Origin: Aquirhabdus parva
GTDB taxonomy: Bacteria > Pseudomonadota > Gammaproteobacteria > Pseudomonadales > Moraxellaceae
DNA: 64,000 bases
Assembly: GCF_003351745.1 (NCBI RefSeq)
Contig: NZ_CP031222.1
Coordinates: 1,470,207 to 1,534,206, forward strand
Reading direction: 5' to 3'
Shown here: positions 28,628-30,848 of the stretch, piece by piece
Numbering within the stretch: the first letter of the stretch is position 1
How the letters are laid out: every line of letters starts with the position of its first letter
Notes under the pieces: model-generated
The model's input: the letters and a program-made list of their open reading frames with translations, nothing else
What the model was told of the DNA's origin: nothing
Database searches by the model: none
Translations under genes and position numbers: made by a program

Positions 28628-28647
28628 AAATATTGCGAGGAATCAAA

Positions 28648-29310
28648 ATGTCAGATGTAGAAAGCGAAACTGCTATTTTAGATGCTCTAGAGACGATTAC
28701 GGTAGACACGACCCCTAATATGGTCATCACCCCATCGGCGCAGGAATATCTAAAAGATCTACTCGCCAAACAAAATACGCCTGGCATTGGTGTACGTATT
28801 TTTGTTGAAAATGCAGGTACACCACGTGCGGAATGCTGCATGGCATACAGCACACCAGGTGAGGAAGATTTTAATGATGCCAAGATTGATTATGCCGATT
28901 TTTCTGCATATCTTGATAACCCAAGCATCCCGTATCTTAAGGATGCAGTGATTGATTACAACAAAGATCGTTTTGGTGGTCAGCTCACATTTAAAGCACC
29001 GAATTCAAAGATTCCTCGTATCGGTGCAGATGCATCTATTGAAGAGCGTATTGGTTATGTTTTGCAAGCCGAAATTAATCCGGGCTTAGCGGCACATGGC
29101 GGGAATGTTTCATTGGTTGAATTGTTTGATGATCCTGCCGATGGGCTAACGGCTGTACTGCAATTTGGCGGTGGATGCCAAGGGTGTTCTGCTGTAGATA
29201 TGACCTTAAAGCAAGGTGTTGAGACATCCCTGAAAGAACATATACCAGAGCTTGGCAGAGTTATTGATAAAACGGATCATACCAAACGTGAAGGTGCATA
29301 TTTTAAATAA
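28648..29310 (+). CDS. nfuA: Fe-S biogenesis protein NfuA
   Basis: 220 residues. The N-terminal part is a degenerate A-type (IscA-like) domain (ITPSAQEYLKDLLAKQN...GVRIFVENAG), and the C-terminal NifU-like domain carries the cluster-binding CxxC as C177-x-x-C180 in FGGGCQGCSAVDMTLKQG. NfuA receives [4Fe-4S] clusters and delivers them to client enzymes, especially under stress. GAGGA sits 6 bases before ATG 28648; the upstream TTG would overlap that site. About 3 kb separates it from the isc operon on the other strand. Confidence 0.95.
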   Translation: MSDVESETAILDALETITVDTTPNMVITPSAQEYLKDLLAKQNTPGIGVRIFVENAGTPRAECCMAYSTPGEEDFNDAKIDYADFSAYLDNPSIPYLKDAVIDYNKDRFGGQLTFKAPNSKIPRIGADASIEERIGYVLQAEINPGLAAHGGNVSLVELFDDPADGLTAVLQFGGGCQGCSAVDMTLKQGVETSLKEHIPELGRVIDKTDHTKREGAYFK

Positions 29311-30071
29311 TGCCCTGATTGCCATCGGGATGGCTGCTTTATCAATGTCGCTTAAGAACAGACCAACTGTAGTGATTTCGCAGTTGGTTTTTTTTATGGG
29401 AAAATGATTTGAATCTTCCATGTATGTGGCATCAAAAATATTCCTTTTTAGAAATATTTGGTATAAATATTGCTGATAAATTTATAGTGTTTATACGTTG
29501 TTGCGCTTGACCCGTCATTACAATCGACGGTATAAATATAAAAGGTTGGCGTTGTTTGGTGAGAAGAAGTTACCAAACTACTGAAATGCAAAGAACTAGA
29601 TATTGTTATCCTTCCGAGATTGGATTGCAGCCAGCTTTATACAAGATATAAGACCTACATGCCTAGATAGCGATGAGTTGTTTTCATTCAATTGCAATGA
29701 ATATGTCACATTAATATCATGCAAGTATGGTTTTATGGGACCGTACCTTTTTGGTGCTTGGCAATGACAACACAGTTAACGTGTTGTGTCGTATATGCTG
29801 TAAGTGGTGGTTAAACCCCTTCGTAAGATCTATACGACAAAAAATAATGAATCGGTTGATATTTTGACACCTGATTAAATGTTTGATTTTGATTGGTTAT
29901 ATTGATAACTAAATGGTGGTAAATACCCCTCGTGGCACTGGTCAGGAGGATCTCGATACAGAATATCGAGACCTATCATCATTAAGTTCATCTCAAGAGC
30001 TTCGATTCATTCATTTTAGTGATCAACGTACGACCGTCACTTTAAAATAGAAATAGTGAGGAATATGGACT
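29311..30071. other. Long non-coding region with dyads and a repeated motif
   Basis: After the nfuA terminator (29362-29395), about 670 bases carry no convincing gene. It holds several structures: a 7-bp dyad ACAACAC/GTGTTGT at 29767-29787; TGGTGGTTAAACCCCTTCGT at 29805-29824 and a related TGGTGGTAAATACCCCTCGT at 29914-29933; an 8-bp dyad TCTCGATA/TATCGAGA at 29951-29971. These precede the small acidic peptide gene and could belong to its promoter or leader, or mark a non-coding RNA. Confidence 0.6.
29362..29395 (+). terminator. Intrinsic terminator of nfuA
   Basis: ACCAACTG (29362-29369) pairs with CAGTTGGT (29381-29388) and is followed by an eight-base T-run. Confidence 0.88.
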
Positions 30072-30179
30072 ATGTTAAAAATGAATATCAATGCCGCATT
30101 CGAATATGAAGTTGAAGAGCTAGATTTGGAGTTTGAAAATGGCGGTTATGACGTGGCTGATGATGCCGTAGAGCTGTAA
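30072..30179 (+). CDS. 35-residue highly acidic peptide (putative)
   Basis: ATG at 30072 with GAGGA ending about 9 bases upstream, stop TAA at 30177-30179. The product has 11 acidic residues and one Lys, with an alternating acidic/hydrophobic stretch EYEVEELDLEFEN followed by GGYDVADDAVEL. A strong hairpin follows 11 bases after the stop. Coding is supported by the ribosome-binding site, a clean stop and non-random composition, but not by any family I recognise. The alternation suggests a beta strand or nucleic-acid mimic; the GG might suggest a leader peptide, but no processing enzyme is nearby. A first ATG at 30065 in another frame ends after 14 codons. Confidence 0.5.
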   Translation: MLKMNINAAFEYEVEELDLEFENGGYDVADDAVEL

Positions 30180-30190
30180 TCAACGTATAG

Positions 30191-30221
30191 ACGCTTTTGT
30201 AAGGTTGCAACAAAAGCGTCA
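30191..30221 (+). terminator. Hairpin after the acidic peptide gene
   Basis: GACGCTTTTGT and ACAAAAGCGTC form an 11-bp perfect stem around an AAGGTTGCA-type loop. The bases after it (AATCTTC) are not a full T-tract, so it may be a terminator with weak U-run or a stabilising 3' structure. Confidence 0.6.
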
Positions 30222-30413
30222 ATCTTCAAGATCATGTTTATTTAAAGTATTTTTATTTTTTGGATAATTTCTTTTATTAAAGAAACATGAATACAACATA
30301 TAAGTTCATCTAATTGTATAGATAAAGTACTCCTTTGTAGGGTCTTACTTACACGATAGTATGAGAGCTGTGGTAACATTACTGACTTTGAAATTCTTGA
30401 CTTTGGTTTGTTT

Positions 30414-30848
30414 ATGTTTAGTTTGCATCCAAAACTCGCACAGGATACATTCCTGATCGGCGACTTTCCGTTATCAACCTGTCGTTTGATGAATGACATG
30501 CAGTTCCCTTGGCTGATTCTGGTTCCACGAGTACCTCAGATCACCGAGCTTTACGAATTGTCTCAGCAAGATCAAGCTCAATTTTTGCGCGAATCAAGCT
30601 GGCTATCAAGTCAGTTGGCGCGTATTTTTCGTGCAGACAAAATGAATGTTGCTGCCTTGGGTAATCAAGTCTCTCAATTGCATTTCCACCATATAGTTCG
30701 TTATCAGAATGACCAAGCTTGGCCAAATCCAGTTTGGGGCAATCGTTCTGTCGATTATACAGTGGAGGCATTGGCAAGAATGCGTCAGACATTGATGCTC
30801 GCGTTAAGAGGGCAAAGTGAAATGCCTTTTGATTGGAAGATGGATTAA
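30414..30848 (+). CDS. HIT-family hydrolase
   Basis: 144 residues. The histidine triad appears as LHFHHIVRY near residue 91, and LMNDMQFPWLILVPR in the middle is the typical strand before it. The set resembles the bacterial HIT domain proteins that hydrolyse nucleotide phosphoramidates or dinucleoside phosphates. The ATG at 30414 is used; a TTG two codons earlier is possible and no strong ribosome-binding site is visible for either. Transcribed alone. Confidence 0.88.
   Translation: MFSLHPKLAQDTFLIGDFPLSTCRLMNDMQFPWLILVPRVPQITELYELSQQDQAQFLRESSWLSSQLARIFRADKMNVAALGNQVSQLHFHHIVRYQNDQAWPNPVWGNRSVDYTVEALARMRQTLMLALRGQSEMPFDWKMD

Follow-up and report, generated by a model that had tools for sequence, protein, structure and literature searches.

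A small acidic protein gene between nfuA and a HIT-domain gene

The window, by which we mean the whole 64,000-nucleotide stretch of DNA analysed here, belongs to a host genome of 3.78 Mb on a single contig. Within it, nfuA and a gene for a HIT-domain protein are separated by a gap of ~1.1 kb that holds one convincing reading frame (Table 1). A sequence-only reading had drawn attention to this frame for its good ribosome-binding site, and both the frame, from ATG to stop, and a Shine-Dalgarno-like AGGA were confirmed. The translation of its 35 codons (stop codon at 30177-30179) is MLKMNINAAFEYEVEELDLEFENGGYDVADDAVEL, a peptide with a net charge of -10.5 at pH 7. A tRNA scan of the window found no tRNA, and an Rfam scan of the window gave no match at gathering score.

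Table 1. Coordinates, strand and supporting evidence of features around the small acidic protein gene
Feature	Position in window	Strand	Basis
nfuA, upstream neighbour, with NifU and Fe-S_biosyn domains	28633..29310	+	Pfam
nfuA terminator	29362..29395	+	inverted repeat ACCAACTG/CAGTTGGT with T-run, loop 11
Upstream non-coding stretch, not conserved; strong fold of its right half together with the gene	29396..30058	+	
Shine-Dalgarno-like AGGA, 9 nt 5' of ATG	30059..30062	+	sequence read directly
35-aa acidic small protein gene, tail DDAVEL	30072..30179	+	ORF, homologues, same-tail look-alikes, dN/dS
DDAVEL hexapeptide and stop, most conserved part	30159..30179	+	codons vary synonymously
11-bp stem-loop 3' of stop, without T-run; probable transcript end or 3' stabiliser	30190..30220	+	
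HIT-domain protein, downstream neighbour	30408..30848	+	Pfam

The frame is conserved and selected as protein

An unstudied small protein was one of the options raised by the sequence-only reading, which had set conservation of the reading frame in relatives as a test beforehand. This option is now strongly supported, as conservation of the frame far exceeded chance: it recurs in other genomes, and elsewhere on the chromosome, with its codons drifting synonymously. Among 97 relatives searched, two of its three congeners carry it without interruption (80% and 71% identity), both being MAGs. The gene in these two congeners lies between mfd (identified by its TRCF domain with Pfam) and lepA (identified by eye), unlike the nfuA/HIT setting in the window, so its conservation does not reflect hitch-hiking on a conserved neighbourhood. 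Compared with the two congeners, the window's copy carries 9.5 and 13.5 synonymous and 8.5 and 11.5 non-synonymous differences over ~20 synonymous and ~85 non-synonymous sites, corresponding to dN/dS of 0.14 and 0.09, respectively (range 0.08-0.14). More broadly, 24 equal-length pairs were compared within genera (or within the other families f20, f21 and f38); 3 were saturated, and dN/dS was at most 0.35 in 20 of the 21 finite pairs and 0.57 in the remaining one, single values being rough for genes this tiny. Because the codons of the tail vary synonymously, selection acts on the protein, and we regard 30072-30179 as almost certainly a real, selected protein gene.

A shared C-terminal tail across genera and families

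Below, genera of the window's family carry g numbers (g1 being the window's own) and other families carry f numbers. Three weak matches in g10 and g16 were short frames with the same ending as the window peptide, and profiles extended step by step brought in members from g7 and g8. Sequence and profile searches account for 13 members, counting the query, and all of them end DDA[VT]E[LM], a uniformity to be read in the knowledge that the profile itself gives weight to the tail. Four further weak matches (L004, L006, L007 and L010) were judged by eye from their translations to be chance, and the weaker profile matches, mostly partial or inside long frames, were likewise rejected; a few of those in short frames were inspected individually.

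We also searched for the tail itself as a DNA pattern, D-D-A-[T,V,I,A,M]-E-[L,M,I]-stop, with the backward pattern as a control; for members found in this way the DDA-E tail is a given, since it is built into the search. Within the window's family the pattern matched 29 of 348 genomes versus 2 for the control, and a readable short acidic protein frame was present in 27 genomes after G056 and G288, whose matches were 8-aa tails, had been dropped; one of two matches in G023, which lies inside a 214-aa frame, was dropped as well. Across the order it matched 13 of 174 genomes versus 0 for the control, these being 3 from the window's family, 8 credible members from f20, f21 and f38, and 2 that were dropped, namely a 12-aa match in G388 and an undecided match in G076, where masked bases precede the frame. 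The f21 genomes with a member are 6.0-6.7 Mb in size. A profile search of 390 genomes gave no credible new member, whereas the tail pattern later gave these eight in the 174-genome sample of the same order. Profile A5 did not recover the members from g2, g4, g5, g6, g12 and g13.

The first pattern is blind to TTA and TTG leucine codons. A looser one, which covered 97 genomes, matched 40 of these relatives versus 10 for its control; 34 of the 40 matches were credible, one per genome, and came from 33 of the 61 window-family genomes and 1 of the 36 others. It newly brought in g5 (4/4 genomes), g14, a fifth g13 genome and the family f35. Pattern matches in G031, G033, G070 and G074 were dropped before the credible count.

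In total, the searches place the peptide in 12 of the 16 genera in the window's family and, outside it, in four families (f20, f21, f35 and f38), with a single credible copy per genome wherever it occurs. The sequence-only reading was thus right about an unstudied protein and underestimated its spread. Its absence, in these searches, from the remaining four genera of the window's family suggests that the peptide is dispensable there; for g15, g9 and g11, absence beyond the 97-genome sample is based on the profile search and on readings of the gap where the gene might lie.

The 41 tabulated members (36 distinct sequences; G028 and G094 stand outside the 41) are 26-43 aa long, with a median of 30, contain 38% Asp/Glu on average and share the tail D-D-A-x-E-[L/M/I/V]. 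A loose pattern places a Shine-Dalgarno-like site ahead of each of the 41. Comparison within genera guided the choice of start codons, and several frames stay open further upstream. No ~18-residue hydrophobic span of the kind found in membrane small proteins was seen in the members, judged by eye from their sequences and D/E content. Single-sequence AlphaFold gave a low-confidence model without secondary structure, an uninformative fold that says little on disorder.

One family or several

Sequence comparison makes homology secure among members of six genera (g1, g7, g8, g10, g14 and g16). Between the window's group and members from g2, g4, g5, g6, g12 and g13, only the tail is common beyond chance. 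Two or three unrelated families might therefore have acquired the tail by convergence, with the six secure genera, perhaps together with the other families, forming one of them. To compare the remainder of the proteins, the last six residues were removed and the bodies scored against 300 shuffles. In keeping with convergence, the bodies of the g2-g13 group and the window's group (g1, g7, g8, g10 and g16) were no more alike than shuffles (z -1.8, reached by 292/300), and the profile-profile match between these two groups (probability 54) was confined to the 8 columns of the tail. However, bodies of the window's group resemble not only the g14 member (z 7.1, reached by 0/300 shuffles) but also the members from f20, f21, f35 and f38 (z 5.2, 0/300), and the same other families are matched by the g2-g13 group profile with a probability of 91 (the three group pairings gave 54, 70 and 91), although their bodies are only marginally similar to those of the g2-g13 group (z 1.8, reached by 17/300 shuffles). 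These other families also have a convergent AraC-type neighbour in common with g13 and g2, and each genome holds one credible member, never one of each kind. We consider convergence unlikely and a single order-wide family probable; on these comparisons, the same-tail look-alikes in the six further genera and the four other families are likely orthologues.

The g14 member (L153:1408-1521) ends DDAQEV, the most divergent tail; being flanked by mfd and HIT, it bridges the two gene contexts seen in the window's group.

The gene is kept while its neighbours change

Across 20 loci and further contexts, in which neighbours were named by eye unless Pfam is stated, the genes around the peptide vary from genus to genus, with none accompanying it throughout. 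At least six genera have retained the gene through changes in the surrounding gene order. It lies between GST and HIT genes in g10 and between mfd and HIT in g14 (HIT was assigned in both by sequence likeness, by eye), and mfd also precedes it in two g1 genomes and in the g7 genome G034. In two g2 genomes, nfuA lies 4 kb upstream. A PTPS/queD-like gene is upstream in 5/6 g2 loci, 4/4 g5 loci and one g13 locus, and T2SS genes are upstream in g12 and f35. On the other side, NAD kinase is downstream in 5/6 g2 loci and 3 kb downstream in the g4 genome G006, and a fadH-like gene (Oxidored_FMN) is downstream in g5 and g12. An AraC-type gene is convergent with the peptide in three g13 loci, two g2 loci and all eight f20, f21 and f38 members; its Arabinose_bd and HTH_18 domains were identified with Pfam in one g13 and one f21 copy and by eye in the others. 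In the same eight members tRNA-Asp precedes the peptide, joined by tRNA-Val in f21 and f38. We take the order in P. aeruginosa PAO1 to be xcpZ, three such tRNAs, PA3094 (AraC), PA3093, fadH1 (PA3092) and nadK (PA3088), from which, together with the f21 genome sizes, f21 is probably Pseudomonas, and PA3094 is presumably the AraC neighbour of the peptide in P. aeruginosa.

Several observations concern the slots themselves. In g15 and g9, which we take to be Acinetobacter and Psychrobacter, matched mfd and HIT stretches lie 151-272 bp apart (in 4/4 and 3/4 chosen genomes, respectively), and the three forward frames of this gap show no family tail, so the peptide's g14 slot is vacant in these genomes. 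The mfd-HIT junctions L157-L162, L165 and L167 are close neighbours in sampled peptide-less genomes (g15, g9 and one g11). In the window's genome mfd is ~42 kb from HIT, a rearrangement at the site occupied by the peptide in g14. Separately, a protein of ~490 aa (L119:6005-7471, L129, L130 and L212) seems, by eye, to recur around the peptide in g4, g13 and f35; its g4 copy has no Pfam match and is followed by a cNMP-binding/rhodanese gene and NAD kinase.

The lack of a constant partner gene disfavours three readings of the peptide: a precursor, an antitoxin and a leader. As the precursor of a ribosomally synthesised and post-translationally modified peptide (RiPP), it would have an acidic leader and a C-terminal core, and its members are indeed short and acidic, with a variable body and a nearly fixed C-terminal end; those of g1 even carry Gly-Gly ahead of the last ~ten residues. 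However, Gly-Gly occurs in g1 only among the 41 members, and no recurrent modifying enzyme or exporter adjoins the peptide in the 20 loci and other contexts (mostly by eye), leaving a RiPP highly improbable. Alternatively, the peptide could be an acidic antitoxin, or could inhibit a toxin or a regulator; such a regulator might be the AraC one encoded convergently with it in 8/8 credible members outside the window's family and in 5/20 other loci. The same regulator is not a neighbour in 15/20 loci, and in g1 and g5 the peptide has no second conserved small ORF at its side, sequences in the other groups being too alike or too scarce to judge. We judge an antitoxin or inhibitor quite unlikely and treat the AraC regulator as a candidate partner only where it is adjacent.

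Probable transcript ends and flanking non-coding DNA

The sequence-only reading had pointed to a strong 11-bp hairpin right after the frame, and this stem holds up: its arms (30190-30200 and 30210-30220) enclose a 9-nt loop, and it is more stable than shuffles (z -3.3). Stems lie 3' of the stop in all three g1 members, the window and two congeners, with differing sequences (z -3.3 to -4.0), and T-tailed terminators lie 3' of the gene in 4/4 g13 members examined. We read the 11-bp hairpin as most likely marking where the transcript ends, and because of these stems and terminators a one-gene transcript is the simplest reading. A scan of terminator-like sites found 2 versus 0.6 expected, with a loop limit of 8 that excludes both the 9-nt-loop hairpin, which was not among the sites found, and the 11-nt-loop nfuA terminator. 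That terminator ends where the region marked out by the sequence-only reading begins (29396). Promoter-like sites were at shuffled expectation (5 found, 5.3 expected).

These 3' ends also bear on the possibility that the peptide is a nascent-chain or leader peptide whose conserved C-terminus acts in the ribosome near the stop codon and regulates in cis. Conservation that reaches the stop codon would suit a leader, as would a same-strand HIT gene next in line in the window, g10 and g14. Yet, depending on genus, the downstream gene is HIT, lepA, COG2836-like, NAD kinase, fadH-like, yecA-like or AraC (partly by eye), the last convergent with the peptide at three g13 loci and in f20, f21 and f38, and four g13 members have T-tailed terminators 3' of the gene. 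The regulatory leader that the earlier reading had offered as a second option is accordingly disfavoured, and we regard it as very unlikely.

A third option had been a dual-function RNA. The region 29700-30240 folds better than 100/100 shuffles (z -3.6), and ~370 nt of non-coding DNA (29700-30070) is unusually stable when folded together with the gene but has no counterpart in eight relatives. The 672 bp upstream has a best non-self match of E 0.077 in nine genomes, its own included, and conservation gives this option no support; because the upstream DNA lacks conservation, we do not take the strong fold as functional. For a mainly structured regulatory RNA with an incidental frame, the fold would count in favour, but amino-acid conservation with synonymous drift and an upstream stretch without DNA-level conservation make it extremely improbable. 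A repeated motif, also claimed earlier, came down to a single 12-nt pair with one copy overlapping the stop codon, which need not exceed chance; short pairs of this kind are often chance, according to the repeat search's own warning.

In g2, the ribosome site of the peptide falls within a predicted stem in 5/6 genomes (L104 and L106-L109; z -2.1 to -3.5), the stem of the sixth having z -0.9; on these predicted folds, a translational switch or thermosensor is possible there. A hairpin apparently shared by g1 and g10 just 5' of the ribosome site was set aside, with a mean z of only -1.1 over the 41 members.

Family libraries, mobile elements and literature

None of 15 member sequences scored above a curated cut-off in Pfam/NCBIfam; there were three sub-threshold matches in all (E 0.016, 0.058 and 0.1), the best being RE_TaqI at 15.1 bits against a cut-off of 26.1. 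PHROG 35173, of unknown function, weakly matched 3/9 A5 members (best E 5.4e-4) and left 6/9 without a match; in the 97 genomes it gave three matches with E <0.005, all in g1, and it also matched 2/14 control genomes. This likeness is probably one of shared composition, and PHROG 35173 was rejected. Searches of phages and plasmids by tblastn with three members, together with one viral contig scan, gave no match. The one match in a PDB sequence search with an f21 peptide, a lectin at E 0.057, was taken as chance.

No description of the peptide family was found in the main texts of the open literature searched; literature matches to the tail letters were to unrelated papers, judged by title. A small-protein study of P. 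stutzeri (PMC10433244) has a table of novel proteins that may include the peptide. In P. aeruginosa, PA3094 has been deleted and shown to activate lecA (PMC13086498, eLife 2026), and the passages of that article on PA3094 hold nothing on a small protein. The peptide family is unnamed, and we would place it among small regulatory or adaptor proteins.

A putative docking peptide

Our preferred, tentative reading, to which we assign a probability of roughly 0.45, is that of a free-standing, mostly unfolded acidic peptide whose C-terminal motif would dock onto a conserved protein. The product would be soluble and largely disordered; its acidic and hydrophobic body varies, and the nearly fixed tail D-D-A-[T/V]-E-[L/M]-COOH, carboxylate included, would bind one conserved protein partner. 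Docking could then tune the partner or compete with another ligand, much like the acidic tail of SSB. That docking occurs through the C-terminus is something we infer from conservation alone.

Known systems offer partial parallels. The C-terminal acidic tail of bacterial SSB similarly combines acidic residues, a hydrophobic last residue, a free carboxylate and conservation up to the stop. It is a docking tail, as the end of the peptide is proposed to be; however, the peptide is free-standing rather than the tail of an OB-fold protein, and ends [T/V]-E-[L/M], not Pro-Phe. Its [T/V]-x-hydrophobic-COOH end also resembles class I and II ligands of PDZ domains. The peptide has no apparent signal peptide, whereas known bacterial PDZ proteases act mostly outside the cytoplasm. 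The small membrane proteins CydX and AcrZ are of similar length, but the members of the peptide family, at ~38% Asp/Glu, lack a hydrophobic span.

The docking peptide might even define an order-wide class, in which one tiny gene per genome supplies a six-residue, carboxylate-ended tag for a universal cytoplasmic partner. Such a class would be a global adaptor or competitor missed by annotation, probably in Pseudomonas too; we consider this wider proposal unlikely. More generally, the locus holds a selected gene that extends across several genera, probably across an order including Pseudomonas, and that is absent from the curated libraries searched, pointing to an unexplored function. With a fixed content of six residues at a free C-terminus, its partner should be easy to find, which would make the function of the family directly testable in pseudomonads.
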